64,000 nt of DNA, from assembly GCF_001428505.1 (NCBI RefSeq), contig NZ_LMHU01000001.1, positions 1,076,891-1,140,890 on the forward strand. The letters run 5' to 3'. Every line of letters begins with the position of its first letter. Within the stretch, counting starts at the first letter, position 1. This stretch comes from Terrabacter sp. Root181 (lineage in GTDB: Bacteria > Actinomycetota > Actinomycetes > Actinomycetales > Dermatophilaceae). A model generated the notes under the pieces. That model searched no databases, was not told where the DNA came from, and saw only the letters and a list, made by a program, of their open reading frames with translations. Of the stretch, positions 547-63,800 are shown piece after piece. Made by a program: the position numbers and the translations under genes.

Positions 547-766
547 ACCAGTGGTGTCGGGTTGGGGCTCCCCCGAGCAACCCGAGAAGGAGAATGGCAG
601 GACGGACCGCTCCGCGCCAGAGGTTGGAGCCATCCATTTTCAGGAGATCCTCAGGTGGCGGGCAGGGTGTTCCGAAGAAGTGGTCGTATGCCGGGTGGTC
701 GACGGAGGATCCGGAGCCGTACTTGCCGGGCGCGTCCGCGTCCCGGCCCGAGCGTGTGACGCGGCG

Positions 767-1585
767 TCAGTCGAGGGGGGCGACGTCGGGGCGCTTGGCC
801 AGGCGGTGGTCGCCCGAGCTGCGCCCGGTGAGGCGGCGGTGGACCCACGGGCCGACGTACTCCTTGGCCCACTGCGCGTTGGCCTGCAGCGCCTCGCGGC
901 GGCCGATCGGGGGAGCAGGCTCGAGCGGGGTGGCCCAGTCGGTTTCGGTCGGCGTGTGGCCGAGGGCCTCGAGCGCGGCGAGGGCGACGCGGCGGTGGCC
1001 CTCGGTCGTCATGTGGATGCGGTCCTCGGACCACATCCGCCAGTCCCGGAGGGCGTGCAGGCCCCACTGGTCGATGACGTGGGCGCCGTTGCGACGGGCG
1101 ATGCTCCAGATGTTGGCGGTGTGGATCGCGGCGCGACCCCGGGTGGCCTTGACGAGCGGGGCGTCGGCCGGGTCGACCGGCGTGGCCATGAGGACGTCGG
1201 CCCCGGTCGCGCGGATGCGGGCGACGGCGGCCTCGAGCCGCGCGGCGAGGCCGTCGAGGTCGGCCTTCGGGCGCAGGATGTCGTTGCCGCCGCCGACGAT
1301 GCTGACCAGGTCGGGCTGGAGCGACAGGGCGTCCTCGAGCTGCGGGCCGACGACGTCGGCGAGCTTGCGGCCGCGCACGGCGAGGTTGGCGTAGCCGAAG
1401 TCGAGCCCCTCGCTGCGAGCGATCTCGGACAGGTGCGACGCGAGCCGGTCGGCCCAGCCGGCGAACTCGCCGTCGTGCCCGAACGTCGGGTCGTCGTCGC
1501 ACATGCCCTCGGTGAACGAGTCGCCGATCGCGACGAAGCGCGTCCAGACCGTGGGTCCGGAGCCGTCGGGTGCGGGCTGGGTCAT
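767..1585 (-). CDS. SGNH/GDSL-family hydrolase
   Basis: A 272-residue cytoplasmic esterase/lipase-type hydrolase without a signal peptide. SGNH blocks are clear: block I GDSFTEG near residue 20 (nucleophilic Ser), a Gly in the [10 protein letters not shown] segment, block III GGGNDI (Asn) near residue 95, and block [11 protein letters not shown] with the catalytic Asp/His pair near residue 200. The ATG start overlaps the stop of the upstream uracil-DNA glycosylase gene by four bases (ATGA), so the two are translationally coupled. The natural ester substrate cannot be told from sequence. Confidence 0.9.
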
Positions 1586-2265
1586 GTCAGCCTCCAGTCG
1601 ATGGGTGCCGCGCCCTGCTGGGCGAGGAGGTCGTTGGTGCGGCTGAAGGGCCGCGAGCCGAAGAAGCCGGAACGCGCCGAGAGCGGGGACGGGTGGGCCG
1701 ACTCGATGCGCGGCACGTCGCCGAGCATGGGGGCGAGGGACTGCGCCTGCCGTCCCCAGAGGATCGCGACCAGTGGTCCGCCGCGCTGGACGAGGGCCGA
1801 GATCGCCTGTGCCGTCACGGTTTCCCAGCCCTTGCCCTGGTGGCTGGCTGACGCGCCGGGCCGCACCGTGAGCACCCTGTTGAGCAGCATCACGCCGCGC
1901 TGGAACCACGGCGTCAGGTCGCCGTCGCCCGGCGTCGGGAGGCCGAGGTCGGTGCCGAGCTCCTGGTAGATGTTCTGCAGCGACCGGGGGACCGGGCGCA
2001 CGTCGGGCGCGACGCTGAAGCTCAGGCCCACCGGGTGACCGGGTGTCGGGTAGGGGTCCTGGCCGACCACGAGCACGCGCACGTCGGGCAGTGGCAGCGA
2101 GAAGGCGCGCAGCACGCGGTCGCCGGCCGGGAGGTAGCCGCGACCTGCCGCCACCTCCGCGCGCAGGAACTCCCCCATCGCGGTGATGGTGTCGGCGACC
2201 GGCTCGAGCGCCGGCACCCACGTCGGGTGGACGAGGTCGCTGAGGGGGCGGGCTGGCACGGCCAC
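1582..2265 (-). CDS. ung: uracil-DNA glycosylase, family 1
   Basis: A 227-residue base-excision-repair enzyme that removes uracil from DNA. The water-activating motif is GQDPYP (usually GQDPYH; the P variant is common in actinobacteria), followed by GLSFSV, the [10 protein letters not shown] region, LLNRVLTVR, and the DNA-intercalation motif AHPSPLSA with [12 protein letters not shown] near the C-terminus. Length matches the family. It is the first gene of a two-gene minus-strand operon with the GDSL hydrolase and starts 38 bp from the divergent nagA gene. Confidence 0.96.
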
Positions 2266-2303
2266 ACGCTACCCCTGTGCGGTGTGCGACAGAATCGACC
2301 CCG

Positions 2304-3482
2304 ATGAACCTCACACTGCGCGGACCCGCCCTCGTCGACGACACGGTGCTGCCCGACGTCCTCGTCCACGTCGACGGCGAGCGCATCACGGCCGTCACTC
2401 CACTCACGGCCGGCGCGGAGCCCCCGCCCGGCGCCGACGCGGCCGAGCGGGTGTCGGGGACGATGCTGCCTGCATACGTCGACATCCACTGCCACGGCGG
2501 CGGCGGCACGGCGTTCACCGACCTCCGCGACGACGCGGCCGCCGCTGCGGCCGAGCACCACCACGCGCACGGCTCGACGAGCCTCCTCGCGAGCCTCGTG
2601 ACGATGAGCTCCCGTGACCTCGAGCGGGGCGTCGCGATGCTCGCCGAGCTCGCCGACGACGGCGTCGTCGACGGGATCCACCTCGAGGGTCCGTGGCTGG
2701 CCGAGGCCCGCTGCGGCGCCCACGACCCGACGCTCCTGCGTGACCCCTCGCTCGCCGAGGTCGAGCGCCTCATCGAGCTCGGCCGCGGCCACATCCGCCA
2801 GGTGACGCTCGCCCCTGAGCGCGCTCACGGCCTCGACCTCGTCCGCTGGCTCACGTCGGCCGGCATCCACGCGGCAGTGGGTCACACGACGGCCACCTAC
2901 GCGCAGGTCGAGGCGGCGGTCGCGGCCGGCGCCGACCTCGCCACGCACCTCTTCAACGGCATGGACCCGTGGCACCATCGCACGCCGGGCGCCGTTGCGG
3001 CACTGATGCGTTCGGCCGCGCGCGGTCACGTCACGGTCGAGCTCATCGCCGACGGCGCGCACCTGTCGGACGACACCGTGCGCACGGTCCTCGACCTCGT
3101 CGGCGCCGACCACGTCGCCTTCGTCTCCGACGCCATGGCGGCGGCCGGCGTCGGAGACGGTGCCTACGTCCTCGGCGGCCTCTCGGTCGTCGTCGACCGC
3201 GGCATCGCCCGCCTCACCCGTGACCCCGACGGCACGACGCCCGGATCGATCGCCGGGGGCACGAGCCACGTCGCCGACATCGTGGCCCGGGCCGTTGCCG
3301 CCGGCGTCCCGATGGCGTATGCCGTCCGCCCCGCCACGCGCACGCCTGCCCGCGCGCTCGGGCTGGCCGACCGGGGGGCGCTCGCCGTGGGATCCCGCGC
3401 CGACGTGGTCGTCGTCGACGAGGCCGCCCGAGCGACCCGGGTCATGAGACGCGGGCGGTGGCTGGAGTCCCCGCTGCCCTAG
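2304..3482 (+). CDS. nagA: N-acetylglucosamine-6-phosphate deacetylase
   Basis: A 392-residue amidohydrolase that deacetylates GlcNAc-6-P in amino-sugar catabolism and cell-wall recycling. Visible family motifs in order: DIHCHGGGG (metal/phosphate region near residue 58), HLEGPWL (metal-binding Glu), AVGHTTATY, THLFNGMDPWHHRTPG, and FVSDAMAAAG with the catalytic Asp. The ATG at 2304 is chosen because homology starts there; an in-frame ATG 27 bp upstream would add an unrelated leader. No nagB or PTS genes are nearby. The HAD gene begins 9 bp after its stop, so they are probably co-transcribed. Confidence 0.95.
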   Translation: MNLTLRGPALVDDTVLPDVLVHVDGERITAVTPLTAGAEPPPGADAAERVSGTMLPAYVDIHCHGGGGTAFTDLRDDAAAAAAEHHHAHGSTSLLASLVTMSSRDLERGVAMLAELADDGVVDGIHLEGPWLAEARCGAHDPTLLRDPSLAEVERLIELGRGHIRQVTLAPERAHGLDLVRWLTSAGIHAAVGHTTATYAQVEAAVAAGADLATHLFNGMDPWHHRTPGAVAALMRSAARGHVTVELIADGAHLSDDTVRTVLDLVGADHVAFVSDAMAAAGVGDGAYVLGGLSVVVDRGIARLTRDPDGTTPGSIAGGTSHVADIVARAVAAGVPMAYAVRPATRTPARALGLADRGALAVGSRADVVVVDEAARATRVMRRGRWLESPLP

Positions 3483-3491
3483 GCTCGGCCG

Positions 3492-4139: not shown

Positions 4140-4192
4140 GGTCCTTGGGGGTCCCGGTCCGCACCTGACGGCCCGCAGGCTGCGTCCCAACG

Positions 4193-4262: not shown

Positions 4263-4317
4263 GCGGAGGGGGTCGGAGGGGTCGGAGGCACCGGGTCGCA
4301 GGGCCTAGCATCTGTGC

Positions 4318-5679
4318 GTGCACAGCTTCGACAAGGACGCCGACCACGTCGCCGTCGACAAGGTCCTCAGCTACGCCCGCGAGCGACTGCTCATGGACCC
4401 GATCCCGCTCGACGGCGCGCAGCCCGAGGACTACCTCCGGGCCGCGGCCGGCCAGACCATCACCCCGCAGGGTCTCGGCTCGACGCGGGCGATGGAGCTC
4501 TTCGAGCACACCCTGGCGCCGGCCTGCCTCTCGACCGACCACCCCCGCTACCTCTCCTTCATCCCGTGCGCTCCGACGCGCGAGGCCGCGGCGTTCGACG
4601 TCGTCGTGGGCGCGTCATCGATCTACGGCGGGTCGTGGATGGAGGGCGCCGGCGCGGTCTACGCCGAGAACCAGGCCCTGCGCTGGATCAGTGACCTCGC
4701 CGGCCTGCCCGACTCGGCGGGCGGCGTCTTCGTGCCCGGTGGCACGGTGGGCAACCTGTCAGCGCTCGTCGTGGCACGGCATACGGCCAGGGCTCGCGCG
4801 AAGCAGGCGGGCACCGGCGCGCGCCCCTACCGGATCGCCGCGACGGACAACGCGCACTCGTCGGTCGTCTCGATGGCCGCGGTCATGGACGCCGAGGTCT
4901 GCGGCGTCCACGTCGACGAGAAGCTGCGCCTGACCGGTGCCGAGCTGCGCAGGACGCTGGAGGAGCACGGCGCCGAGACCTTCTTCGCCGTCGTCGCGAC
5001 GAGCGGCACGACGAACTTCGGTGTCGTGGACGACCTCGAGTCGGTCGCCGAGGTGTGCCGCGAGTACGGCCTGTGGCTGCACGTCGACGGTGCCTACGGC
5101 GGCGCCGGGCTCGCGGCCCCGTCGGTGCGCCACCTCTTCACCGGCATCGAGCACGCCGACTCCTTCATCGTCGACCCGCACAAGTGGCTCTTCGCGCCGT
5201 TCGACTGCTGCGCCCTCATCTACCGCGAGCCCGAGCTCGCACGGGTCGCGCACACGCAGGAGGCCGGCTACCTCGACGTCATCACGAAGTCGGCCGAGTG
5301 GAACCCGACCGACTACTCCATCGGCCTGACGCGGCGGGCCCGCGGCCTGCCGCTCTGGTACTCCCTCGCGGTCCACGGCACCGACGCCTACGTCGACGCC
5401 ATCGAGAGCACGCTCGAGGTGACGCGTTTCGCCGCCGACGAGATAGGGCGCCGCGACTACCTCGAGGCGGTGCGCGAGCCCGACCTCTCGGTCGTGGTCT
5501 TCCGGCGCCTCGGCTGGTCGCCCGAGGACTACCAGGCGTGGACCGACCGGCTACTCGCGCAGGAGTTCGCCTTCGTCGTGCCGACGACGTTCCGCGCGGA
5601 GACGCTGACGCGCTTCGCGATCGTCAACCCGCACACGACGAAGGAGGACGTCAACGCCATCCTCGATACGATGGCGTGA
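4318..5679 (+). CDS. pyridoxal-5'-phosphate-dependent group II decarboxylase
   Basis: A 453-residue fold-type-I decarboxylase of the aromatic-L-amino-acid/glutamate family. The Schiff-base lysine is Lys289 in DPHKWLF; His180 in DNAHSS stacks on PLP; Asp257 in HVDGAYGG contacts the pyridine nitrogen; VVATSGTTNFG is the conserved phosphate loop. The active-site Tyr loop region (WNPTDYSIGL) is present. Sequence does not settle whether the substrate is an aromatic amino acid, a branched one or another acid. It stands alone behind a palindromic upstream region (4193-4262), so it probably has its own regulator. Confidence 0.9.
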   Translation: MHSFDKDADHVAVDKVLSYARERLLMDPIPLDGAQPEDYLRAAAGQTITPQGLGSTRAMELFEHTLAPACLSTDHPRYLSFIPCAPTREAAAFDVVVGASSIYGGSWMEGAGAVYAENQALRWISDLAGLPDSAGGVFVPGGTVGNLSALVVARHTARARAKQAGTGARPYRIAATDNAHSSVVSMAAVMDAEVCGVHVDEKLRLTGAELRRTLEEHGAETFFAVVATSGTTNFGVVDDLESVAEVCREYGLWLHVDGAYGGAGLAAPSVRHLFTGIEHADSFIVDPHKWLFAPFDCCALIYREPELARVAHTQEAGYLDVITKSAEWNPTDYSIGLTRRARGLPLWYSLAVHGTDAYVDAIESTLEVTRFAADEIGRRDYLEAVREPDLSVVVFRRLGWSPEDYQAWTDRLLAQEFAFVVPTTFRAETLTRFAIVNPHTTKEDVNAILDTMA

Positions 5680-5824: not shown

Positions 5825-5892
5825 TCGGTCTAGGGTGTGACCGGAGCCAACGCACGACGTGAGACGCAGCACCACTCCAGCGAGACGGGGAC

Positions 5893-6286: not shown

Positions 6287-6751
6287 ATGGCCGAGGTGAC
6301 GATCCGCCGCGCGTCGGCCGACGACGCCCTCATCGTCGCCGCGCTGCACCTGCAGTTCGCCCGCGAGCTGGGTATGCCGTCCGAGACTGGCTACCTCGAC
6401 CGTTTCGTCGACGCGTGGCTGGCCGAGCGGCCCGACCGGCCGACGTGGATCGCCGAGAGCCGCGGCGAGCACGCCGGCATCCTCGAGACCCGGCGCATCC
6501 ACGCGCTGCCGTGGCCCGGTCGCAAGGACGTCTCCTGGCTGCACGTCGGTGGCCTCTTCGTGGCCCCGGGCTGCCGTGACCGCGGCGTCGGCCGCGCCCT
6601 CACCGAGGCGATGATCGAGTGGTCGCGCACCACCGACGTCAAGTGGATCCGGCTCAACGCCCCCGACGACCGCGCGCAGGAGTTCTACGAGCGGCTCGGC
6701 TTCAGCTCGCCCGGTCGGCTCATGGAGTTCGACCTCCGGGAACCGCAGTGA
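6287..6751 (+). CDS. GNAT-family N-acetyltransferase
   Basis: A 154-residue acetyl-CoA-dependent acyltransferase. The core runs from VTIRRASADDALIVAALH (beta1/alpha1) to the acetyl-CoA pyrophosphate-binding signature CRDRGVGRAL, followed by the C-terminal LNAPDDRAQEFYERLGF strand-helix element typical of the fold. ATG at 6287 is preferred over in-frame upstream starts because the domain begins immediately after it. Its stop overlaps the GTG start of the P1 peptidase, so the two are coupled. The substrate is unknown. Confidence 0.88.
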   Translation: MAEVTIRRASADDALIVAALHLQFARELGMPSETGYLDRFVDAWLAERPDRPTWIAESRGEHAGILETRRIHALPWPGRKDVSWLHVGGLFVAPGCRDRGVGRALTEAMIEWSRTTDVKWIRLNAPDDRAQEFYERLGFSSPGRLMEFDLREPQ

Positions 6752-7818
6752 GCGGTGGCCCCTTCGTCGCGGCCCCCGGCCCGACCAACTCCCTCGTCGA
6801 CGTCTCCGGCGTGCGCGTCGGCCACTGCACCCGTGACGAGCCCGGGTGGCTCACAGGCGTCACCGTCGTGCTCGCGCCCGAGGGCGGTGCGGTCGCCGGC
6901 GTCGACGTGCGTGGCGGTGGCCCCGGCACGCGTGAGACCGACCTGCTCGACCCCCGCAACCTCGTCGACCGGATCAACGCCGTCGTCCTCGGCGGCGGGT
7001 CCGCCCTCGGCCTCGCCGCCGCCGACGGTGTCGTGGACGCCCTGCTCGACGACGGGATCGGCTGGCCGATGGGCGAGCCCGGACACGTCGTGCCGATCGT
7101 GCCGTCCGCGATCCTCTTCGACCTCGGACGGGGCGGCACGTGGGCCCATCGTCCGCGCGCGGAGGACGGGAGGGCGGCATACGCCAGTGCGTCGGCCTCG
7201 GCCGTCGCCCAGGGCTGCGTCGGCGCCGGGACCGGTGCGAAGGCGGGCGGCTTCAAGGGCGGCGTCGGCTCCGCGAGCATCGTGCTCGAGTCGGGTGCCA
7301 CCGTCGCAGCGCTCGTCGCCGTCAACGCCGTCGGCTCGGCCGTCGACCCTGCCACCGGGCTGCCGTATGCCGTGGGCCTGGGTCTCGGCGACGAGCTGGC
7401 CCACGTGGGTCGGCCGAGTGCGGCAGAGCTCGAGGAGTCCCGGGCCCGGGCCGAGGCGCTGCCCGCCAACACCGGCCGCCCGGGCCTCGCGACGACGATC
7501 GGGGTGATCGCGACGGACGCCACCCTGACCAAGGCCCAGTGCCAGAAGATGTCCGGCATCGGTCACGACGGCTTCGCGCGGGCGCTCAAGCCCGTGCACA
7601 CGCTCTTCGACGGCGACACCCTCTTCACGCTGGCGACGGGGGAGCGGCCGGCACCCGACCCGGTCGAGCAGACGCTGCTCATGGAGGCGGGCGCCGACTG
7701 CGTGGCGCGAGCGATCGTCCACGCGCTGCTGGCGGCGACGTCGGTCGACCGCTCCGCCGACGGCGGCGTGATGCTGCGCTCGTGGTCCGACGCGTTCCCG
7801 TCCGCGATCGCGCGCTGA
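6748..7818 (+). CDS. P1 (S58/DmpA) family peptidase
   Basis: A 356-residue Ntn-like autoprocessing aminopeptidase related to DmpA and BapA. Family blocks: LVDVSGVRVGHCT at the N-terminus, VVLGGGSALGLAAADGV, CVGAGTGAKAGGFKGG, VAVNAVG, and TTIGVIATDATLTKAQ, where self-cleavage before a Ser/Thr normally frees the nucleophile; the C-terminal FDGDTLFTLATG is also typical. No signal peptide is seen, so it should be cytoplasmic. The GTG start overlaps the GNAT stop by 4 bp. Physiological substrate (small N-terminal peptides or esters) is inferred from the family. Confidence 0.92.
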   Translation: MSGGPFVAAPGPTNSLVDVSGVRVGHCTRDEPGWLTGVTVVLAPEGGAVAGVDVRGGGPGTRETDLLDPRNLVDRINAVVLGGGSALGLAAADGVVDALLDDGIGWPMGEPGHVVPIVPSAILFDLGRGGTWAHRPRAEDGRAAYASASASAVAQGCVGAGTGAKAGGFKGGVGSASIVLESGATVAALVAVNAVGSAVDPATGLPYAVGLGLGDELAHVGRPSAAELEESRARAEALPANTGRPGLATTIGVIATDATLTKAQCQKMSGIGHDGFARALKPVHTLFDGDTLFTLATGERPAPDPVEQTLLMEAGADCVARAIVHALLAATSVDRSADGGVMLRSWSDAFPSAIAR

Positions 7819-10491: not shown

Positions 10492-11385
10492 TCAGGGGGC
10501 GGGTGGGGTGAGGTGGTCCCAGCCCCGGCGGATCGCTGCACCCAGGTGGTCGAGCGGGTAGGGCAGGCGCGGGTCGGGCTCGCGCAGCGCCTCCTCGAGG
10601 GAGCCCGCACCGAGCCGGCGCTCGCGGATCACGGCCGCGACCGCGGCGATCTCGTCGCGCTGCCGGGCCACGAACGCGCCGTCGACCGGGCGTCCGTGTC
10701 CCGGCACGACGACGATGCGGTCAGCGGCCTGGACGAGGTGCGAGGTGAGTGTGTCGGCCCACTCGAGCGGCCAGCAGTCACTGCCGAACGACGGCTGGGC
10801 GCTCTCCTCGACGAGGTCACCGAGGAACATCGCGTCGGTGTCGGGCACGAGCACGGCGACGTCGCCGTCGGTGTGGCCGCGACCGGCATACGTCATCGTG
10901 ACCACGCGGTCACCGAGGTCGATGGTCGCGTTGGAGCCGAAGGTGCGGTCGGGCGCGCGCACGACGGTAGCCATGACCTCGGCGGCGTCGCGCTCGGTGT
11001 AGCCGTGCTCCGGACCGGCTCCCGGGTCGGCCCGGAAGGCGGCCTTGATCCGCTGGGCGTCTTCCTCGATCGTGCGCCCGACGTTGTCGTGCGCATGCAC
11101 CGTCGCGAGGTCGAAGGCGGCGTTGCCGAACGTGTGGTCGAAGTGGACGTGCGTGTTGACGACGTGGCGCACCTCGATGTCACGGCCGAGGCGCCGGACG
11201 TCGTCGAGCACCTGGCTGCCCTCGACGTCGCTCGCACGGGTGTCGATGACGACGGCGCCGTGGCGGCCGAGCACGAGTCCGACGTTGACGTCCCACTGCC
11301 GGTAGCGCGCGACGAAGACGCGATCGGCGACCTCGACGAAGCCCGTCGTCGTCGCCGTCGTGGCTCCCTCGGGCGGTGCGGTCAT
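10492..11385 (-). CDS. metallo-beta-lactamase-fold hydrolase
   Basis: A 297-residue MBL-fold enzyme. The dinuclear metal motif is NTHVHFDHTFGN (HxHxDH), with VVIDTRA before it, GRGHTDGD supplying the next His, FLGDLVEES the bridging Asp, and VVPGHGRP the last His. It resembles glyoxalase-II and quinoprotein-relay-associated hydrolases, but the substrate is not defined. The ATG at 11385 is preferred because AAGGG lies seven bases upstream; a GTG at 11409 is possible. It is convergent with the AbiEi-type gene. Confidence 0.88.
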   Translation of the reverse strand: MTAPPEGATTATTTGFVEVADRVFVARYRQWDVNVGLVLGRHGAVVIDTRASDVEGSQVLDDVRRLGRDIEVRHVVNTHVHFDHTFGNAAFDLATVHAHDNVGRTIEEDAQRIKAAFRADPGAGPEHGYTERDAAEVMATVVRAPDRTFGSNATIDLGDRVVTMTYAGRGHTDGDVAVLVPDTDAMFLGDLVEESAQPSFGSDCWPLEWADTLTSHLVQAADRIVVVPGHGRPVDGAFVARQRDEIAAVAAVIRERRLGAGSLEEALREPDPRLPYPLDHLGAAIRRGWDHLTPPAP

Positions 11386-12507: not shown

Positions 12508-12528
12508 GCCGACCCCACGGCATACGCC

Positions 12529-12611: not shown

Positions 12612-12653
12612 AAATGGGCCGTATGCCGAGGGGCTGGGTTCGCAGCTACATGA

Positions 12654-14467: not shown

Positions 14468-14522
14468 GGGGTCCCAGGCGCCCGTGAGGCAGAGCGGCGT
14501 ATGCCGTGTGCCCGCGAGGGAC

Positions 14523-14813
14523 TCAGCGGGCGAAGAGGGCGCGCGTCGCGTTCTCGTGCTCGGCATACGCCGAGGACGCCTTGAGGGTGAGGCGGCCGAC
14601 GTCGGCCAGCGCCTCGGTCATCTGGGCCCGGATGCGCTGGTAGTCGTGCATGACGCGCTCGAACTCGACCTTGGCCGGGCCCTGCCAGTCGGCGCCCATG
14701 CCGGCGAGGCGCCCGCGCAGCTCGGCGGTGCTCGACGTGATGGTGTCGGCGAGGCGGTTGATGTCGCCGGCCGCGGCGGCGATGCGTTCGGTGTCAACGA
14801 CGGAACGGGACAT
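14523..14813 (-). CDS. WXG100-family protein (ESAT-6-like)
   Basis: A 96-residue helical-hairpin protein. The turn motif W-x-G is Trp43-Gln-Gly in ADWQG, flanked by two amphipathic helices. The C-terminus YAEHENATRALF contains a Y-x-x-x-D/E-like pattern used by type VII secretion substrates. No partner WXG100 gene, EccC ATPase or other ESX component is in the window, so its secretion machinery must be elsewhere. ATG start; monocistronic and convergent with groEL. Confidence 0.88.
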   Translation of the reverse strand: MSRSVVDTERIAAAAGDINRLADTITSSTAELRGRLAGMGADWQGPAKVEFERVMHDYQRIRAQMTEALADVGRLTLKASSAYAEHENATRALFAR

Positions 14814-14952: not shown

Positions 14953-15741
14953 ATGACCGTGTGGATCGACCAGCCGATCTGGCCCGCCCACGGTCGGCTC
15001 TTCGCCCACCTCGTCAGCGACACCTCCTACGACGAGCTGCACGCCGTCGCCCGCGCCGCCCAGCTGCACCCGCGGTCGTTCGACGGCGACCACTACGACG
15101 TGCCGCAGGGACGGTGGCAGGACGCGGTCGACGCCGGCGCCACACCGACGGGCGGGGCCGACCTCGCGCGCCGGCTCAACGCGTCCGGCCTGCGGCTGCG
15201 CAAGCGCAAGCGCGACCGCGGGGTCCTCCGCATCCTCGACGTGTCGTTCCCCAACGGCTCGAGCGACGTCGACCTCGTGGCCTCCGACGACCCGATGGAC
15301 CCGGCCCGCGTGCTGGCGGCGATGGTCTTCGTCCGCGACCGGCGCGGCGACTTCGTCGTCGTGCACAGCGTGCGTCGCGGCGAGTGGGGCTCTCCCGGTG
15401 GGTGGCGCGAGGACGACGAGACACCGGTCGAGAACGCCGTGCGCGAGACGTTCGAGGAGACCGGACTCAGGCTGCGTCACCCGGACGTACTGCCTTGCGG
15501 CTACGAGCGGTTCACGCCTCGCACCGACGACAACCTCTTCGGTCGCGACAAGCCCTTCCTGCAGGTCTTCCGAACCCGGCTCGACGACGTGCGGCCGGAG
15601 CTCACCGACGGCGACGACGGCATCCACGAGACGCGCTGGGTGACGCCGCAGGAGTACGCCGAGCTCTGCGGCCACCTCTTCTGGTGGGCCCTCGCCGTCG
15701 AGGTCTTCCCGGACCTGCGCGGCTTCGCCCGCCCCCGCTGA
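14953..15741 (+). CDS. DUF4031-NUDIX fusion hydrolase
   Basis: A 262-residue two-domain protein. Residues 1-80 match DUF4031: WPAHGRLFAHLVSDTSYDEL and FDGDHYDVPQGRW. Residues 115-245 form a NUDIX fold with the metal-binding box beginning GGWREDDETPVENAVRETF and ending EETG. NUDIX enzymes cleave nucleoside diphosphates linked to another group; which one is unknown here. DUF4031 also occurs alone, and its fusion suggests a shared substrate. The ATG start is supported by the DUF4031 N-terminus. A long hairpin follows the stop. Confidence 0.9.
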   Translation: MTVWIDQPIWPAHGRLFAHLVSDTSYDELHAVARAAQLHPRSFDGDHYDVPQGRWQDAVDAGATPTGGADLARRLNASGLRLRKRKRDRGVLRILDVSFPNGSSDVDLVASDDPMDPARVLAAMVFVRDRRGDFVVVHSVRRGEWGSPGGWREDDETPVENAVRETFEETGLRLRHPDVLPCGYERFTPRTDDNLFGRDKPFLQVFRTRLDDVRPELTDGDDGIHETRWVTPQEYAELCGHLFWWALAVEVFPDLRGFARPR

Positions 15742-15746
15742 GACGC

Positions 15747-15780
15747 ACGTATGCCGCCCACCTGGGTGGACGGCATACGT
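15747..15780. terminator. bidirectional hairpin terminator
   Basis: ACGTATGCCG pairs with CGGCATACGT (10 bp), enclosing an inner CCACC/GGTGG stem after one mismatch. It sits between the convergent NUDIX and YajQ genes. Both arms carry the genome's over-represented GTATGCCG octamer. Confidence 0.8.
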
Positions 15781-15826
15781 GGTCTCTCGTGGTGGGTTCA
15801 CCTGTCGCCCAAGCGGACCCGCGCGC

Positions 15827-16831: not shown

Positions 16832-18013
16832 TCAACTCTGACGGGGCAGCGGCTGGGGCCGGCTCTTGACATCGATGCTCGCCTCACCGGCCTCGAGCGC
16901 ACCGTGGATCTGCTGCTGAACCTGACGCCGGTCAACGCGGCCGAGGCGTGGGTCGACTTCGAACGCAGTGACTATGGCAGCGCGCCGACGCTGCGGCTGC
17001 GGCCCCTGGACTTCGACCCGGACCTGGTGCGGCGTGATCTCTACGGGCTCGAGATCGAGAACGTCACGGATCCCGCACTCCACGCACTTCTGCGATCCAA
17101 GCGGGACGAGATAGCCAGACAGGTCACGGCTCTGGAGGATCGCGACACGTCGCGCTTCGTGTACGGGTCACTGCAGCTCTACGGGGGGATCACCCGGGTC
17201 TTGGCAGCGGATGCGGAAGAGCTGCTGCGGCTCATCCCCGCCCAGGTCCCCAGCGGGCGCAGCGTCACCGCCGGGGCTTTTGCGGAGGCCGCGCGTGCCG
17301 AGTTCCATCGATACGGCGCCCAGTACCCGGGCTTCCCCGTGAACGTCCAGGTGCGCGAGGACATCTCGGAGCTGATGGTGTCGTTCGGCCAGCTGCTCAT
17401 CCCCGAGGCCGCAGCGATCAGGGCTGACCGCGTCGAGGCGTTGCTGCACCATGAGGTCGGCACTCACGTCGTCACGTACCAGAACGGTGCCAGGCAAGCG
17501 CTGAAGCTCCTGACGATCGGCCTGCCGGGTTATGACGAGACCCAGGAGGGACTCGCCGTGCTGGCGGAGTACCTGGTCGGCGGGCTGGACCCCCGGCGGC
17601 TGCGGGTGCTCGCGGCGCGCGTCATCGCCATCGACCGGATGCTGCACGGAGCCGACTTCTTGGAGATCTTCGAGTCGCTGAGGGCGGACCATGGGATCCC
17701 GGCGCGGACCGCGTGGGCCATCGCCATTCGCGTCGTCGTCGCGGGCGGGTCCGTCAAGGACGCGATCTACCTCCGCGGGATCAGCCGCCTCCTCGACCTG
17801 CTCGCAGAGGGCGTCAACCTCGACGTCCTGTTCGTCGGCAAGCTCGCGGTCGACCACATTCCGCTGATCCAGGATCTGCTCGACCGCAAGGTGCTTGAAG
17901 CGCCATGGGTCCGTCCGCGCTGGCTCGACGTTCCCGGCGCGCAGGAACGGCTGGACGGCATACGCGCGGGCATGTCCGTCACCGACCTCTACGAAGGAGC
18001 CGTGCCCACATGA
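16829..18013 (+). CDS. DUF1704 / QEGLA-motif zinc metallopeptidase
   Basis: A 394-residue protein of the flavohemoglobin-expression-modulating QEGLA family (TIGR02421), homologous to eukaryotic MATCAP tyrosine carboxypeptidases. Family landmarks: TVDLLLNLTPVNAAEAW near residue 25; the zinc motif HExxxH (His208, Glu209, His213) in HHEVGTHVVTYQNG; and the name-giving QEGLA at 239-243, whose Glu is the third zinc ligand in relatives. GTG at 16829 is chosen because family similarity begins there; a longer frame from 16619 would overlap the integrase fragment. It overlaps the ATP-grasp start by 4 bp (ATGA). The predicted role is removal of a C-terminal residue or tag from a peptide. Confidence 0.88.
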   Translation: MSTLTGQRLGPALDIDARLTGLERTVDLLLNLTPVNAAEAWVDFERSDYGSAPTLRLRPLDFDPDLVRRDLYGLEIENVTDPALHALLRSKRDEIARQVTALEDRDTSRFVYGSLQLYGGITRVLAADAEELLRLIPAQVPSGRSVTAGAFAEAARAEFHRYGAQYPGFPVNVQVREDISELMVSFGQLLIPEAAAIRADRVEALLHHEVGTHVVTYQNGARQALKLLTIGLPGYDETQEGLAVLAEYLVGGLDPRRLRVLAARVIAIDRMLHGADFLEIFESLRADHGIPARTAWAIAIRVVVAGGSVKDAIYLRGISRLLDLLAEGVNLDVLFVGKLAVDHIPLIQDLLDRKVLEAPWVRPRWLDVPGAQERLDGIRAGMSVTDLYEGAVPT

Positions 18014-46513: not shown

Positions 46514-46634
46514 GGTCGCCTCCGTCGCGTCGGGTGTCGGGGACCGGTGTCGTATGCCGTGTGCTGGCGGCCGTGCCCACCGGGCGAGCCGCTGGGGCCC
46601 GCTGGGAGGTGGTGCGCGTCACCCTAGCGGAGCT

Positions 46635-49056: not shown

Positions 49057-49398
49057 TCAGCGGAGCGCGATCACGAGGACGAGGACCAGGGCCGAGACCG
49101 CGACGACCCCCGCGGTGGCGGCCGTGCGGGCCAGCGTCGGGGCGGCGACGGCTCGGGGGTCGCGGCCGTCACCGGTGCGCAGCAGGCGGCGGCCGTCGCG
49201 GTAGCGGCGTCGTGCCGTCAGGGCGAGGTCGGCGCTCCACACCAGGCCGAGTCCCGCCACGGCATACCCCGTCGGTCCGAGCTGCTGCGGGAGCACGCGC
49301 AGGCCGATGAGCGAGCCGACGGCGACCGAGAGCGCCGTGCGCCGCCAGGCGAGCGACGTGCGCTCCGCCTGCAGACCGGGGTCGGCGGGGGAGGTCAC
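49057..49398 (-). CDS. DUF202 membrane protein
   Basis: A 113-residue protein with the DUF202 hallmark QAERTSLAWRRTALSVAVG followed by three hydrophobic helices. The GTG start overlaps the stop of the upstream DUF202 gene (GTGA). The two DUF202 proteins probably act together, as such pairs are common. Function of the family is not established. Confidence 0.88.
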   Translation of the reverse strand: MTSPADPGLQAERTSLAWRRTALSVAVGSLIGLRVLPQQLGPTGYAVAGLGLVWSADLALTARRRYRDGRRLLRTGDGRDPRAVAAPTLARTAATAGVVAVSALVLVLVIALR

Positions 49399-51103: not shown

Positions 51104-51943
51104 ATGACGCAGGTTCCGACACGCACCCTCGGCGACGGCACGACCCTCCCCGCCACCGGCTTCGGCACGTACCCCCTCACGGGGGAGGACGGCATACGCG
51201 CCATGGTGACCGCGCTCGAGGCCGGCTACCGGCTGCTCGACACGGCCGTCAACTACGGCAACGAGGCGGAGGTGGGCGAGGCGATCCGCCGGTCCGGCGT
51301 GCCCCGCGACGAGATCGTCGTCCAGACGAAGGTGCCCGGCCGCGACCACGCGTACGACCGCGCCATCGCCTCCGTCGAGGAGTCGCTCGAGCGCCTCGGC
51401 CTCGAGCGGGTGGACGTCGCGCTCATCCACTGGCCCAACCCGAGCGTTGGCCTGTACGTCGACGCCTACCGCGCGCTCGTCGAGTGCCGCGAGCGCGGGC
51501 TCGTGCGGTCCGTCGGCGTCAGCAACTTCACCGAGCAGCACCTCGCCGACGTCATCGAGGCCACCGGCGTGACGCCGGCGCTCAACCAGGTCGAGCTGCA
51601 CCCGCTCTTCCCGCAGGACCGCCTACGGGCGGTGCACGAACGCCTCGGCATCGTCACCGAGGCGTGGAGCCCGCTCGGCAAGCGCAACGCGCCCTTCGCC
51701 GCCGACCCGGTGGCCGCGGCCGCCGAGGCGCACGGCGTCGAGCCGGCGCAGGCGATACTGCGCTGGCACGTGCAGCTCGGAGTGGTTCCGCTGCCGAAGT
51801 CGTCGGACGCCGAGCGGCAGCGCGCCAACCTCGACGTCTTCGGTTTCGAGCTGAGCCAGGACGAGGTCGCCGCGATCTCCGCCCTCGGGCGTGAGGACGG
51901 GCGTCTCTTCGGCGGCGACCCGAACACGCACGAGGAGATGTGA
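51104..51943 (+). CDS. aldo/keto reductase
   Basis: A 279-residue NADPH-dependent TIM-barrel oxidoreductase. Catalytic tetrad: Asp and Tyr in LLDTAVNYGNE near residues 46-52, Lys in VQTKVPG, His in ALIHWPN. NADPH-binding elements include VGVSNFTEQHL and VPLPKSSDAERQRANL. Close to 2,5-diketo-D-gluconate reductases in style, but broad substrate range is normal. Monocistronic; its stop is 17 bp before the convergent arsR. Confidence 0.93.
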   Translation: MTQVPTRTLGDGTTLPATGFGTYPLTGEDGIRAMVTALEAGYRLLDTAVNYGNEAEVGEAIRRSGVPRDEIVVQTKVPGRDHAYDRAIASVEESLERLGLERVDVALIHWPNPSVGLYVDAYRALVECRERGLVRSVGVSNFTEQHLADVIEATGVTPALNQVELHPLFPQDRLRAVHERLGIVTEAWSPLGKRNAPFAADPVAAAAEAHGVEPAQAILRWHVQLGVVPLPKSSDAERQRANLDVFGFELSQDEVAAISALGREDGRLFGGDPNTHEEM

Positions 51944-53625: not shown

Positions 53626-55434
53626 GTGCTGATGCCTCGCCTGCCGTTCCTCGACGACCTGCCGCGGTTCCTCTTCTTCACCGGCAAGGGCGGCGTCGGC
53701 AAGACCTCGCTGGCCTGCGCCACGGCGGTACGCCTCGCGGGGCAGGGCAAGCGGGTCCTGCTGACGAGCACCGACCCGGCCTCGAACGTCGGACAGGTCT
53801 TCGGGGTCGGCATCGGCAACACGATCACACCGGTGCCGACCGTCCCGGGCCTGGACGCCCTCGAGATCGACCCTCAGCAGGCGGTCGACGCGTACCGTGC
53901 CACCATCATCGACCCGGTGCGCGACCTGCTGCCCGCGGCGGAGATCTCCGCGATGACGGAACAGCTGTCCGGTGCGTGCACGACCGAGATCGCCTCGTTC
54001 AACGAGTTCGCGTCGTTGCTCGCCGACGAGTCCGCCACCGCTGCGTACGACCACGTCCTCTTCGACACCGCGCCCACGGGGCACACCGTGCGACTGCTGC
54101 AGCTGCCGGGGGAGTGGACCACCTACCTGTCCGACGGCAAGGGCGACGTGTCGTGCCTCGGACCCGTGGCCGGCCTGGATCGTCGGCGCCACGACTATGC
54201 CGGCGCTCTGGCCGCGCTGACGGACCCCACGCGTACCCGCCTCGTGCTCGTGACGCGTCCGCAGGGGTCCTCGATCCGCGAGGCCGCGAGGACGTACGCG
54301 GAGCTGCACGAGCTGGGCATGACGAACGCCCACCTCGTCGTGAACGGTGTCATGCCGGCGTATGCCGTCTCAGGCACCCCCGCGGACGAGCTGGCCCAAG
54401 CGGTCCGTGTCCGTGAGGAAGCCGCCCTCGAAGCCGTCCCCGACGCCCTGGCGGCGCTGCCTCGGACGACCGTGCCGCTGCTGGCCGTCAACACCGTGGG
54501 CCTGCCCGCGCTCCGGGCCCTTTTCGACCCCGGGGCGCGGTCCCAGCCGGCACCCGACGCTGAGATCGCCTCGCTGCCCGCGGGCTTCACAGGCCTGCGA
54601 CATCTCGTGGACGAGGTCGAGAGCGACGGTCACGGGCTCGTCATGTGCATGGGCAAGGGCGGGGTCGGCAAGACCACCGTCGCCGCTGCGCTCGCACTCG
54701 AGCTCGCCTCCAGGGGCCACGAGGTGCTGCTCACGACGACCGACCCGGCGGCACACCTGAACGAGACCCTGCAGGCCGAGGCCCCGCACCTCACCGTCGA
54801 GCGCATCGACCCCGAGGTGGCGATCGAGGGCTATCGCACCCGGGTCATGGCGAGCAAGGGCAAGGCCCTGGATGATGCCGGTCGAGCCGTGCTGGCCGAG
54901 GACCTCAAGTCGCCGTGCACCGACGAGGTCGCGGTCTTCCAGCAGTTCTCCCACGTCGTGTTCCGAGCCCGGAAGCAGTTCGTCGTGCTCGACACCGCGC
55001 CGACCGGGCACACCTTGCTCCTGCTCGACGCGACCGGCTCGTACCACCGTGAGATCACCCGGCAGATGAGCGAGGGCGCGCACTTCGTGACCCCGCTCAT
55101 GCGGCTGCAGGACCCGGCCCAGACCAAGGTCGTCATCGTCAGCCTTCCCGAGACGACCCCGGTGCTCGAGGCCGAGGAGCTGCAGGACGACCTCGTCCGG
55201 GCCGGCATCACCCCCTGGGCCTGGGTCGTCAACGGCAGCCTGGCCGCGGCAGGGCCGAGCTCGCCGTTCCTGCAGGCCCGCGCCCACGCCGAGGCGGAGC
55301 CGCTCACCCGCGTGACGGAGCTCTGCCAGCGCGTGGCCGTCCTGCCGCTGCTGGCCAGCGAACCCGTCGGCGCCGCAGCGCTGTCCGAGCTCACCCGTCC
55401 CCTCACGGAAGGCAACCTGGTCGATGCGCACTGA
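53626..55434 (+). CDS. arsA: arsenical pump-driving ATPase ArsA
   Basis: A 602-residue ATPase with two homologous halves. Each half has a deviant P-loop: GKGGVGKTS at residues 20-28 and GKGGVGKTT at 343-351, and each has DTAPTGHT. The three metalloid-binding cysteines known from E. coli ArsA are present in SGACTTE, DVSCLGP and SPCTDEV. It lies 24 bp after acr3 and overlaps the arsC start. The metallochaperone ArsD, normally paired with ArsA, is absent from the window. GTG at 53626; an ATG six bases later is an alternative. Confidence 0.95.
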   Translation: MLMPRLPFLDDLPRFLFFTGKGGVGKTSLACATAVRLAGQGKRVLLTSTDPASNVGQVFGVGIGNTITPVPTVPGLDALEIDPQQAVDAYRATIIDPVRDLLPAAEISAMTEQLSGACTTEIASFNEFASLLADESATAAYDHVLFDTAPTGHTVRLLQLPGEWTTYLSDGKGDVSCLGPVAGLDRRRHDYAGALAALTDPTRTRLVLVTRPQGSSIREAARTYAELHELGMTNAHLVVNGVMPAYAVSGTPADELAQAVRVREEAALEAVPDALAALPRTTVPLLAVNTVGLPALRALFDPGARSQPAPDAEIASLPAGFTGLRHLVDEVESDGHGLVMCMGKGGVGKTTVAAALALELASRGHEVLLTTTDPAAHLNETLQAEAPHLTVERIDPEVAIEGYRTRVMASKGKALDDAGRAVLAEDLKSPCTDEVAVFQQFSHVVFRARKQFVVLDTAPTGHTLLLLDATGSYHREITRQMSEGAHFVTPLMRLQDPAQTKVVIVSLPETTPVLEAEELQDDLVRAGITPWAWVVNGSLAAAGPSSPFLQARAHAEAEPLTRVTELCQRVAVLPLLASEPVGAAALSELTRPLTEGNLVDAH

Positions 55435-60369: not shown

Positions 60370-60489
60370 TCAGTCGCGCGGCTCCTCGTCGTCGTCCCAG
60401 TGACACGTGCACGAACACGTGTGGTCCACCGTGCCGTTCGCCGGGCACCTCTTGTGCCAGCCGTTCTCGCACTCCGCGCTCATGGACAT
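60370..60489 (-). CDS. 39-residue Cys/His-rich small protein
   Basis: The protein has CENGWHKRC near the N-terminus and CSCTCHWDDDEEP near the C-terminus: five Cys and three His in 39 residues, ending in an acidic tail. ATG 60489 has AAGGGG eight bases upstream; a second ATG is two codons on. The pattern suggests a zinc- or metalloid-binding miniature protein. It converges with the ars MFS gene. Real coding is supported by the start site and motif spacing, not by recognised homology. Confidence 0.6.
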   Translation of the reverse strand: MSMSAECENGWHKRCPANGTVDHTCSCTCHWDDDEEPRD

Positions 60490-60830
60490 CCGCTCACCCC
60501 TTGATGAGGTCTCCCTCTCCCACCGGCCGACCGCTCCGTGGCGGTCTACGACGCACCGGAGTCGCGTCCGGCCACTCGGCCCGGCAACCGGCGTTCAGCC
60601 GGTGGACGCACCCACGAGGAAACGCCTCAATCCTGAACGACGGCTGGGGGCAGGGGTACGGTGAAGCCGGGCCGAGCGGCCGGTCACCGCGGTGGTCGGT
60701 GGTCGAGCGTCCAGCCCGGATCGTGTCGCCTGCGTGACCCCCTCACGAAAGTGCACCGTGATGCCCCTCCCAGCATGGCCCGTCCCCAGCAGCCAGAGCC
60801 CTGAGCCCCCAGACCCCTCCGGGCGACCGG
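60490..60830. other. 341-bp gap without a gene
   Basis: No convincing reading frame or RNA gene is visible. It should hold the promoters of the small Cys-rich gene (leftward) and of the LAL regulator (rightward). Confidence 0.5.
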
Positions 60831-63800
60831 GTGGGTCGTCCGGCGAGGGCTGACGCCGTGCACTCGGGGACGGCGCGGGCCACCGACGAGCACGTCGGTG
60901 GCCGCCGCTCCGCCGCCTGCCGGCCCTCGCCCAAGCACCGTCCGCCGGGCCTCACGGTCCGGACGGTGCGCCGTGCCGCGATCCCGGCGCCGGTGCCACT
61001 GGCCTCCGCGACCGAGCGGGCCCGCGGCACTCTCGTGCTCGTCGCAGGCTCGGTCGGCACGGGGAAGACGACCCTGCTCGCGGACTGGTCGGAGGCGCTC
61101 GAAGGGCGCGGCGACCTCGTCGGCTGGGCGTCCCTCGACCGCGAGGACAACGACCCTCAGGTCATGGCCGAGACCCTTCTCGGTGCCGTCCGTGCGGCCG
61201 TCGGACCCCACGTCCCCGCGATCGACGAGGAGACGGTCCCGAGCCGGGTGGGGCACGCCTTCGTCTCGCGCCTCATCGGTCTCGCCGGCGAGGCTCCCAC
61301 GGACACGTGGCTCGTCCTCGACGACCTGCACCTCGTCCGCGACCCGCGCTGCGTCGAGCTCGTCGGGCTGATCGTCCGCTGGGCGCCGCCGTACCTGCAC
61401 GTGGTCATCGGCACGCGTGCCGACCCCGGTCTGCGCCTGGCGCGGCTGCGTCTGGAGGAGCGCCTGGTCGAGGTGCGGGAGCACCAGCTCCGCTTCTCCG
61501 TCGACGACACGCGAGAGCTGTTGTCCCGACACGACCTCGACCTCGACGACGGGCAGGTGCGCCACCTGCAGGAGCTCACCGAGGGCTGGGCCGCGGGCGT
61601 CGCCCTCGCGGCCGTCTCGCTGGCGCGCGGTCGTGACGCCGAGGGGTTCCTGCGCGAGTTCGCGCGGAGCCACCGTGCGATGTCGGGCTACCTCGTCGAG
61701 GAGGTGCTCGCGAGCCTCGACGAGTCGACGCGGGACTTCCTCGTCTCGACCTCGGTCCTCGAGGACCTAACACCCGAGCTCGCCGCAGCCGTCACCGGGC
61801 GCGACGACGCGGGTGCGCTGCTCGAGGCGCTCTCGTCCGACAACGCCATGGTCACCGTCGACCGGGTCGGGCCCCCGACCTACCGCTACCACGTGCTCCT
61901 GCGCAGCTACCTCGGCGCGATGCTCGAGTCCCGGAGCCTCCGGGGCGCCCGAGAGGTCCATGCGCGCGCGGCCCAGTGGTATGCCGCCCACGACGTCCCC
62001 GGGCAGGCGTTGCGTCACGCCGAGGCGGCCGGTGACCTCGGCCTCATGAGCGACGTCATCCACCACCACGCCCTCCACCTGCTCCTCGACGGCCGGGCCG
62101 CCGACGTCGAGGCCGCGGTGCGCACGGTCCACGAGGGTGACCCGGTCATGACGGCGGTCGCAGCGCTCGCGAGCCTCGACCTGTCCGATCCGGTGTCCGC
62201 CCGGGTGCAGTTGGCGTCGCTGGCGACCCAGCCGGGGACGTGGCTCGCGGGCGCGACCGATGGCGACCCCGCGTCCGCCGACCCCGCGGGCCGCGACCCC
62301 GGAGTGCTTCCCCTCGAGCGCCTCCTGTCCGTCGGCCTGCGCTGGCTCTCCTTCGTCGGTGACGACGCCGGGCACCGCCGCACCGAGAGCCCGCCCGAGC
62401 ACCTGGGAGTCCAGCCCACCGGGGACGAGAGGGTCACCGACGGCCTGGCCGCAGAGCTCTCCTCCACGTTGCGGACCTGGTCGGTCGGCCGTCCCGCACC
62501 AGGCGCGGTCACGCTCCCGGGCGTCGACCTCCCGACGAGCCCGTATGCCGCAGAAGGCCTCCCGAGGCGCGGTCGGCCGGCGGGGCGCGTCCCGCACGCG
62601 CGGACCGACCTGACCCTGCTCGACGAGCTGACGAGCGGAGGTGTCCTGCTCGGTGCCGGCCGGCTCGACGAGGCGCGGGCGGCCTACGGCGCCGCCCTGG
62701 TGACCGCCCGCGACGCCGGCCACGTCCTGTCGGCCCTGCAGGCCATGGTCGGCCTCGCCTCGGTCGCCGCCGGCCAGGAAGACCTCGTCCACATGAGGGC
62801 GTGGTCCGAGCAGGTGCTCGCCGACGCCCAGGGCACGCCCTGGGCGATGTCGCCGCGGCTCCTTCCCGCCCACGTCCTGGCGGCGTGGGGTGCCTTCCAC
62901 GTCTTCGACGCCGAGACCGCTCGCGAGCGCAACCGCACCGCCCTCGAGCTCGTCGCCGCGGTCACGGCGGTCCCGCCCGTCGCGGGGGCTCCCGACCTGG
63001 ACCTGGTGGACGGCCCCGACGCGACCTCCACGGCGGCGCGCGGCCTGGAGCAGCTGGCGCGACTCGCGAGGATGCTCCAGGCGCACCTCGACCTCGACGC
63101 GGCGGCGGCCGAACCGGGTGCCCGCCAGGACGTCGCGACCCGCGTCATGGCCGACGCCCGGGCCGTCAGCCGCCTGTCGATGACCCCGGCGATGGCGGTC
63201 GCGGAGCTCTCCAGAGCCCATCTCGTGGTGCTGCTGGCAGGCTTCCCACGGCTGGCCATCGAGATCGAGCAGCTGTGCGCGGCCCTGCCCGGCAGCCAGG
63301 TCGAGACCGCGGTGATGACGTCGGTCCGCCACCTCAGGGCCGGCGAGGACGTCGCGGCCCGGACGGCCGCCGCCCCCCTGCTGTCCCTCGACCCCGCGAG
63401 CCTGCCGCTTCGGCCCGCGGTCACGGCGCACCTGGTCAAGGCGGTGGTCGCCCACCGCAACGCGCAGCCGACGGTGGCCCACGAGGGCCTCGTCGTCGCC
63501 CTGACCCGCGCCGCGCCGCAGCGCGCCCTGCGGATGGTCCTCGAGCTCGCGCCCGAGGTCGCCGACGTGCTCGCCGTCGGGGCCGGGCGGTTCGGTGAGC
63601 TCGAGCCGTTCGCCCTCGTGCTGCGCGAGCACGCGCTGGAGGCTCCGGTGCCGCCGACCGAGCCCCTGCTCGACGTGGCGCTCAGTGCGCGCGAGCTGAG
63701 CCTGCTGCGTGAGCTCCCGTCGCTGCTCACCGTCGCCGAGATCGCCGACGCCCGTGCCGTGAGCCGCAACACCGTCAAGACACAGCTGCGCTCGCTCTTC

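Follow-up and report, generated by a model that had tools for sequence, protein, structure and literature searches.

A high-copy octamer of Terrabacter and other Dermatophilaceae as a candidate DNA-uptake word

Results

The window, by which we mean the whole stretch of 64,000 nucleotides that was analysed, has a G+C content of 71.8% and holds 26 copies of the octamer GTATGCCG/CGGCATAC, 14 of them read as GTATGCCG and 12 as CGGCATAC (exact count). The heptamer GGCATAC/GTATGCC is present 28 times, 14 on each strand, in agreement with the first-pass annotation, which had arrived by eye at about 28 heptamers and 26 octamers, some 14 each way. The sites are given below; the strand is the one that reads GTATGCCG, and the congener status comes from alignment to up to seven congeners.

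686..693, +, octamer GTATGCCG (exact count)
2470..2477, -, one-base variant CTGCATAC; full octamer here in 5/7 congeners
3317..3324, +, octamer, intact in 7/7 aligned congeners
4777..4784, -, octamer, intact in 3/7 congeners, CGGCACAC in the other 4
6372..6379, +, octamer, intact in 6/7 congeners
7175..7182, -, octamer, intact in 6/7 congeners
7365..7372, +, octamer, intact in 6/7 congeners
10884..10891, -, octamer, intact in 6/7 congeners
12518..12525, -, octamer, intact in 5/6 congeners aligned at the site
12621..12628, +, octamer, intact in 6/7 congeners
14499..14506, +, octamer, intact in 2/4 congeners aligned at the site
14561..14568, -, octamer, intact in 0/7 aligned congeners
15741..15785, no strand, terminator-like hairpin from two inverted octamers (gene calls, alignment, folding)
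15749..15756, +, octamer, left arm of the hairpin
15771..15778, -, octamer, right arm of the hairpin
17956..17963, -, octamer in frame, Gly-Ile(ATA) (gene calls)
24985..24992, -, octamer (exact count)
31774..31781, +, octamer (exact count)
34214..34221, +, octamer (exact count)
35581..35588, -, octamer (exact count)
39900..39907, +, octamer (exact count)
45190..45197, -, octamer in frame, Gly-Ile(ATA) (gene calls)
46552..46559, +, octamer (exact count)
49260..49267, -, octamer (exact count)
51190..51197, -, octamer in frame, Gly-Ile(ATA) (gene calls)
54360..54367, +, octamer (exact count)
61979..61986, +, octamer (exact count)
62543..62550, +, octamer (exact count)

Against the 26 copies observed in the window, 0.97 are expected under a Markov model of order 2 and 1.25 under order 3. 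A 704-kb sample of the same Terrabacter genome, window included, has 282 copies as compared to 15.6 expected at order 3, and the octamer is the top-ranked 8-mer of that sample. The whole 4.94-Mb genome contains 2,231 octamers (1096 + 1135 by strand) and 250 copies (126 + 124) of the reversed word, which bears out the over-representation claimed from the window. Equal enrichment of many unrelated GC-matched words, raised beforehand as a way in which the claim might fail, was not seen: among the 7,063 pairs of words that have five G/C and are expected at least once, 10 are enriched five-fold or more at order 3; six of these were listed, five being the octamer itself or words overlapping it, and the sixth being present in 10 copies. 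The one-mismatch neighbours of the octamer occur at just 0–2.2 times expectation, which implies that there is no large cloud of variants around it, and a gradual decay via near-miss words was rejected.

The picture is different with the Markov models of order 5 and 6 that had been proposed for this count. They predict 187 and 271 copies in the 704-kb sample, as compared to the 282 observed, and 19.0 and 25.5 in the window, as compared to 26, and hence little or no enrichment. We read this as an artefact and such models as uninformative here, since a model of that order is built from the word itself; 28 of the 29 GCATAC/GTATGC hexamers in the window sit inside the heptamer. Two kinds of control do not depend on model order: the word read in reverse, and relatives with a comparable G+C but few copies, namely G083 (72.4% G+C, 23 copies), G161 (71.1%, 25) and G093 (74.3%, 7), their G+C being estimated from 40-kb samples.

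The octamer is equally frequent on both strands, and its orientation does not follow GC skew (76:63 where the skew is negative, 52:45 where it is positive and 25:21 in neutral stretches). The suggested comparison with oriC/dif was made in this way, local GC skew standing in as a weak proxy for replication direction, and no polarity of the Chi or KOPS kind was seen; the test is soft because the skew is weak in the Terrabacter genome. Octamers were found in nearly every sampled stretch, on average some 2.0 kb apart and spaced almost at random (coefficient of variation 0.92), and the counts per 20 kb vary more than a Poisson process would give (variance/mean 1.65, 32 stretches). They are more numerous in stretches of higher G+C (rho 0.62 for the 32 stretches, 0.58 without L019), and a 20-kb stretch at 63% G+C that bears an IS110 element has a single octamer. 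Both observations are what a tagged native backbone would lead one to expect; the stretches with few sites are not all mobile DNA (L018, L104). The octamer itself, with 5 of 8 positions G/C, is AT-richer than the genome, yet denser where G+C is higher.

The octamer overrides synonymous codon choice. In 608 crude gene calls, tyrosine in the context G-TAx-GCC-G is encoded by TAT and TAC in a ratio of 118:45, as compared to 18:129 for TAx-GCC with exactly one flanking G, 7:88 with none, and 127:3,319 where the next codon is not GCC. The rare codons are to a large extent found inside the octamer, 24 of 41 ATA and 118 of 270 TAT, and the three ATA codons pointed out at 17957, 45191 and 51191 are all in frame with independent gene calls. 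It is conceivable that a plain codon-pair or dipeptide bias for Tyr-Ala in a high-GC genome produces such a word, as x-Tyr-Ala-x is encoded at 118 of the 214 genic sites. However, a preference for TAT is seen only where the octamer is complete, the word is used in all six frames and at intergenic sites, and relatives at similar G+C hold just 7–25 copies. The TAT/TAC contrast thus rules this bias out as far as crude gene calls allow, and we find it hardly credible.

Two hairpins had been noted in the window, at 15749 and 15772. A hairpin with its arms at 15749 and 15771 is real (-30.8 kcal/mol, z -4.06). By gene calls it is situated between two genes that converge on it, 14953–15741 (+) and 15827–16321 (-), and both of its octamers are intact in 5 of 7 congeners. 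In 25 genomes, inverted pairs with a gap of 4–24 bases were found 1,209 times in hairpin order and 680 times in the other order, or 1,004 and 646 times when G049 is excluded; the hairpin order was the commoner in 20 genomes and the other order in 5. Of 46 distinct hairpin pairs examined, crude gene calls place 40 between genes, 18 of these between convergent ones.

Conservation, also put forward earlier as a check, turned out to be somewhat above background. At the 13 sites for which one or more of seven congeners could be aligned, 59 of 81 homologous octamers (73%) are intact, as compared to 44–55% of all 8-mers and 156 of 257 (61%) AT-matched words with TAT/ATA, a modest excess. The variant CTGCATAC at 2470..2477 is probably a recent loss in this genome, since the aligned position is intact in 5 of 7 congeners.

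The octamer was found to be enriched in one family only within the sampled order. It occurs in 400–4,724 copies in 106 of 186 genomes of Dermatophilaceae (sensu GTDB), including all nine Terrabacter genomes (1,423–2,358 copies), and the count does not exceed 177 in any of the 272 genomes sampled from 18 other families. Some of the octamer-poor relatives instead carry thousands of copies of a close variant, CGGCATCC or CGGCGTAC, and one genome carries CGTAGACC. Thus, G178 has 3,949 CGGCATCC as compared to 40 CGGCATAC, G089 has 4,185 CGGCGTAC as compared to 74, and G008 has 1,183 CGTAGACC as compared to 37 (234–315 in four sister species). The dialect can switch within a genus, as in g33, where G084 has 1,463 CGGCGTAC and G085 has 3,681 CGGCATAC, and two can be found in one genome (G036, 1,217 CGGCATAC and 2,195 CGGCATCC). 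There are at least four dialects, and some of them possibly arose more than once.

The Terrabacter genome encodes comEA, comEC and dprA together with a TadA-type locus. No gene was found that tracks the word, since those compared are present also in word-free relatives: comEC in 179 of 184 Dermatophilaceae genomes, T2SSE-family ATPases in all 55 genomes, word-bearing and word-free alike, a homologue of the Terrabacter TadA-type ATPase in all four word-free genomes compared, and a ComEA that by eye is similar with and without the word in 22 genomes among the matches listed. Accordingly, neither the presence of comEC, nor T2SSE-family ATPases, nor the ComEA sequence correlated with the word. The ComEC tree had 22 coded and 16 named rows, with stops in the named rows written X, and did not include G008. 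When one tad locus was compared across 12 genomes, no gene of the Terrabacter locus was present in all word-bearing and in none of the four word-free genomes, and no ComP-like reader was found there.

Discussion

The codon override, the counts in the genome and the genus, and the conservation somewhat above background all support the view of the first-pass annotation that the octamer is an actively maintained DNA signal. It had left the choice between a modification site, an uptake or recombination signal and a HIP1-like motif. Because of the lineage dialects and the mostly intergenic hairpin pairs we infer an uptake signal: the word is rather likely to be the recognition tag, with core GTATGCCG, of a self-preferring system for DNA uptake by natural transformation in Dermatophilaceae, similar to DUS and USS. 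The broader proposal, that this is a third and independently evolved DNA-uptake-sequence system, the first in a Gram-positive phylum, with a family-wide exchange network of at least four dialects, perhaps Tad-type pili, and a code of sexual isolation among environmental actinobacteria, we hold to be evenly balanced.

The Pasteurellaceae USS word itself is, we presume, unrelated to the word described here. Uptake sequences are published for Neisseriaceae and Pasteurellaceae, and one account considers them convergent and independently evolved (PMC12616744). Passages on Neisseriaceae describe DUS dialects, their co-occurrence and inverted DUS terminators (PMC3630211), and the likeness extends to a short, non-palindromic, high-copy word with dialects of one or a few bases, two in a genome, inverted pairs as terminators, and conservation above the surroundings (PMC3630211, PMC2397512). 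For Pasteurellaceae, hundreds or thousands of motifs, inverted-repeat terminators and variant types are likewise described (PMC12616744). The same traits are seen here: hundreds or thousands of copies, on either strand, far above chance by models of order 2–3 and against the reversed word, dialects, frequent inverted pairs in terminator positions as judged by crude gene calls, a modestly higher conservation, and genes for transformation. Thousands of copies, dialects and hairpin terminators taken together follow the published DUS/USS pattern. In contrast to Neisseria DUS, the word lacks the 5'-CTG-3' core required there, it belongs to another phylum with a Gram-positive envelope, and no ComP-like reader was found for it in the locus compared. 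For the USS of Pasteurellaceae, experiments on uptake support the role of the word (PMC7811141). Within Actinomycetota, Micrococcus luteus similarly has comEA/comEC and Tad loci, and its transformation requires Flp/Tad pili; the main text of that study uses "uptake sequence" 0 times and mentions no uptake word (PMC4322843). Full-text literature searches, in which subscription journals are thinly covered and which are weak evidence of absence, gave, among the papers listed, no account of this word or of any Actinomycetota uptake sequence, and no uptake or transformation result for Dermatophilaceae.

The main rival is a HIP1-like word tied to DNA modification, either through an orphan methyltransferase or through a function in mismatch repair or chromosome structure that uses the mark; selection or repair bias would then maintain the word, and the dialects would follow changes of enzyme. 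The cyanobacterial HIP1 is also an over-represented octamer with flank extensions and lineage derivatives that replace it, and is described as almost coextensive with CGATCG methyltransferases (PMC4390886). All four dialects (GTATGCCG, GTACGCCG, GGATGCCG and GTAGACC) retain the A found at position 3 of GTATGCCG, which makes a shared methylated A possible. However, HIP1 is the palindrome GCGATCGC and our word is not palindromic, and the surplus of pairs in hairpin order, most of them between genes, is a trait of DUS and USS, so we regard this explanation as unlikely.

Chi words are short, over-represented and different between lineages, as is the octamer, and one of their two orientations prevails with respect to replication. 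If the octamer acted like Chi, as a recombination signal recognised by a nuclease-helicase of RecBCD/AddAB type, it should show this bias, but none was seen (1096 vs 1135 by strand, and local GC skew, a soft test with a weak proxy), and we find this reading quite improbable. Chi as a class is also named among over-represented words (PMC4390886). A site for chromosome architecture or segregation, similar to KOPS, parS, matS or the sites of NAPs, would fit a word present in nearly every sampled stretch with near-random spacing. It would not be expected to lack polarity, to form terminator-like hairpins or to turn over its dialects, and seems very improbable.

If the word is an uptake tag, a component of the uptake machinery that binds DNA, perhaps a minor pilin of the Tad pilus or another surface protein, would recognise it on either strand, ComEA/ComEC would import one strand of the tagged outside DNA, and DprA and RecA would recombine it. 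As tagged DNA would be taken up more often, word-bearing alleles could spread by biased conversion to about one per 2 kb, and a change in the specificity of the reader would make the genome respell the word into a new dialect. Inverted pairs may secondarily have become transcription terminators. Uptake, reader, drive and terminator activity are in this sense what we infer for the word. If true, this would be the third case, in a Gram-positive family that is distant and rich in G+C, and would mean that self-tagging evolves repeatedly; natural competence would be predicted in many environmental genera, and the 106 word-rich genomes with their switches of dialect within genera would be material for finding the reader by comparison.

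The flanks of the word have weaker preferences, which vary between lineages. In Terrabacter, a C is preferred before the core GTATGCCG and TC, CC or TG after it, giving the consensus C-GTATGCCG-TC, and the following two positions have next to no preference. GCCGTC is shared with GCCGTCTGAA of Neisseria DUS, but as no preference extends beyond it we treat this as chance and not as kinship.

Abundance and codon use

The window holds 28 copies of the heptamer GGCATAC/GTATGCC and 26 of the octamer CGGCATAC/GTATGCCG (12 and 14 by strand), in agreement with the first-pass annotation, which tallied about 28 and 26 by eye; about one octamer is expected from a Markov model of order 2 or order 3. The window is positions 1076891–1140890 of contig C1 in a genome of 4,939,208 bases, which contains 1,096 + 1,135 octamers by strand, as compared to 126 + 124 for the control, the word read backwards. 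In 704 kb of the same genome it ranks first among the octamers at order 3, with 282 observed and 15.6 expected. At orders 5 and 6 the expectation in this sample rises to 187 and 271, and the excess becomes smaller or disappears because the word feeds its own model. Against the reversed word the genome-wide excess stands (2,231 vs 250), and the claim of over-representation rests on the order-free controls.

Gene positions and codons were taken from 608 crude gene calls in the 704 kb. Genes contain 214 of the 282 sites, 65 are intergenic (46 expected) and 3 lie at gene edges. The core GTATGCCG is preceded by C in 70% and followed by T and then C in 56% and 63% of 138 sites in a Terrabacter sample. 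The most frequent reading frame of the octamer is Tyr-Ala. In the context G-TAx-GCC-G the Tyr codon is TAT 118 times and TAC 45 times; before GCC with exactly one flanking G the numbers are 18 and 129, with neither G 7 and 88, and before non-GCC codons 127 and 3,319. The octamer sets the Tyr codon choice in this frame, and therefore 118 of the 270 TAT and 24 of the 41 ATA codons sit within it, which bears out the earlier idea that the word is used at the cost of rare codons.

Other words were also enriched in this genome: the palindrome ATCGCGAT 5-fold at order 3 (94 vs 17.9, both strands, 704 kb), and in a 346-kb sample TTGTCCACA (12 vs 0.4 expected, both strands), which we take to resemble a DnaA box, and TTGCCCTTG (15 vs 0.8 expected).

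Distribution and conservation

Of 186 genomes of the Dermatophilaceae (as delimited by GTDB), 106 have at least 400 copies, a number of genomes tallied by eye from the table of counts, with a maximum of 4,724 in 4.2 Mb; the remaining 80 have 7–100 (63 genomes) or 111–394 copies (17). An order-wide draw of 297 genomes included 25 from this family, and the 272 others, from 18 families, all had at most 177. Outside the order three genomes only were counted, Kribbella (199), Nocardioides (66) and Jiangella (106), in 4.7–8.9 Mb. Matching counts of word and control identify Humibacillus, Intrasporangium, Arsenicicoccus, Ornithinimicrobium, Knoellia, Phycicoccus elongatus, Janibacter and Dermacoccus among the family members. 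Tetrasphaera species are assigned to the family in PMC9123174.

G114 is a species of g42 (Ornithinimicrobium, from the matching counts of its congeners), a genus that is word-rich apart from it. It has 50 copies only, and ranking over-represented words in 58 kb of it gave no replacement word. It is a natural loss that can be compared with sister species.

When seven congeners were aligned to positions 1–19500 of the window (88–91% identity), 59 of 81 homologous octamers were intact; the corresponding values are 44–55% for 8-mers overall and 156 of 257 for AT-matched 8-mers containing TAT or ATA. This is in line with the suggestion of a maintained signal. Single sites are gained and lost: site 14561 is present in this genome only, and site 2470 has probably been lost from it.

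Dialects

Over-represented words were ranked in 20–58 kb samples of 30 family genomes, 11 word-rich (at least 400 copies) and 19 word-poor. CGGCATAC was the top octamer in nine of the 11 and an overlapping octamer in G009; in G106 it ranked lower, with 8 copies. A related word appeared in six word-poor samples.

Related words in word-poor genomes, by sample ranking
CGGCATCC: G178, G017
CGGCGTAC or an overlapping word: G014, G089, G002
GGTCTAC: G008

Nothing resembling the word was seen in the other 13 samples (20–58 kb), among them G084, yet this genome is rich in CGGCGTAC by genome-wide count. Whole-genome counts of CGGCATCC exceed 2,000 in 7 of 184 genomes (maximum 4,480; others 241–1,336), and those of CGGCGTAC exceed 1,000 in 11 of 184 (maximum 4,185; others 33–870); because these backgrounds are not small, only the extremes are claimed as dialects. 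CGTAGACC has 1,183 copies in G008 and 234–315 in four congeners. Some genomes are mixed (G036, G037, G144, G147), and the bases after the core vary by lineage: CG in G049 (32 sites) and G142 (41), TG in G165 (18), CC in G009 (15). In a tree of one gene, ComEC (38 rows, 12 of 35 inner branches open), the starred branches force two changes each for CGGCATCC (2 rows) and CGGCGTAC (5 rows).

Two genera that lack the word were strongly enriched in CCCCCTTCG/CGAAGGGGG at order 2 in samples of 40 kb, 17 vs 0.9 expected in L035–L036 (G056, g27, Janibacter by a congener's count match) and 18 vs 1.2 in L041–L042 (G093, g36). It is possibly another signal, or a terminator or promoter element.

Inverted pairs

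Inverted pairs with a gap of 4–24 bases number 1,209 in hairpin order and 680 in the opposite order in 25 word-rich genomes (1,004 and 646 if G049 is left out). In 20 of the 25 the hairpin order is the commoner one, the exceptions being G100, G085, G046, G094 and G152. Position was read in a set of loci of which 25 had been chosen for containing a pair, and some of the pairs are homologous across congeners. Of the 46 hairpin pairs that differ in sequence, 40 are intergenic (18 between convergent genes, 21 between tandem genes and 1 between divergent genes); 3 others overlap the edge of a gene, and the last 3 are inside one. Their stems are perfect, 8–20 bp. Only three opposite-order pairs were met in these loci, two in genes and one at an edge. 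The hairpin in the window (15749–15778) lies between two convergent gene ends and has a predicted fold of -30.8 kcal/mol (z -4.06).

A putative uptake tag

In PMC3630211, PMC2397512 and PMC12616744 the uptake sequences of Neisseriaceae (DUS) and Pasteurellaceae (USS) are described as reaching thousands of copies, having dialects of one or a few bases that can be mixed in one genome, being better conserved than the DNA around them, and forming terminators as inverted pairs. The Dermatophilaceae word is like them in copy number, dialects, mixed genomes, conservation and inverted pairs, here putative terminators. Since each of these traits is reported for DUS/USS, the word would most likely be a DUS-like uptake tag, and we consider this probable. 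A methylation word like HIP1, the iterated octamer of cyanobacteria, ranks next and seems unlikely. The present data add strand symmetry and the codon override to these traits. No uptake experiment in Dermatophilaceae was found among the papers that literature searches listed.

Genes of transformation are present. In L089 of this genome comEC adjoins comEA, both above the Pfam cut-offs; of the NCBIfam models the ComEC N-terminal one is above its cut-off, and full-length ComEC and both ComEA models are below. This ComEC has 86% identity with its counterpart in Terrabacter sp. Root85, and the word and control counts of the Root85 genome are exactly those of G173, which belongs to the same genus as the window. 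L098 has dprA (above cut-off) next to a YifB/ComM-like ATPase of the Mg-chelatase type, the two genes together at 10716–13421, and with 14 sites it is the second richest of 32 sampled 20-kb stretches, with none inside either gene. In L156 the gene of a TadA-family ATPase (above cut-off) is accompanied by those of a T2SSF-domain protein and of a DUF4244 protein of 45 residues. Word-rich and word-free relatives were not told apart by comEC, T2SSE-family ATPases, ComEA or the TadA-type gene.

L019, on the second contig of this genome (27 kb, 63% G+C), encodes two transposases of the IS110 type, has a single octamer in 20 kb, and is likely mobile DNA without the tag. The window itself also contains:
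12786–14363, GroEL gene
52516–55434, arsenic block with an ACR3 efflux transporter and an ArsA ATPase
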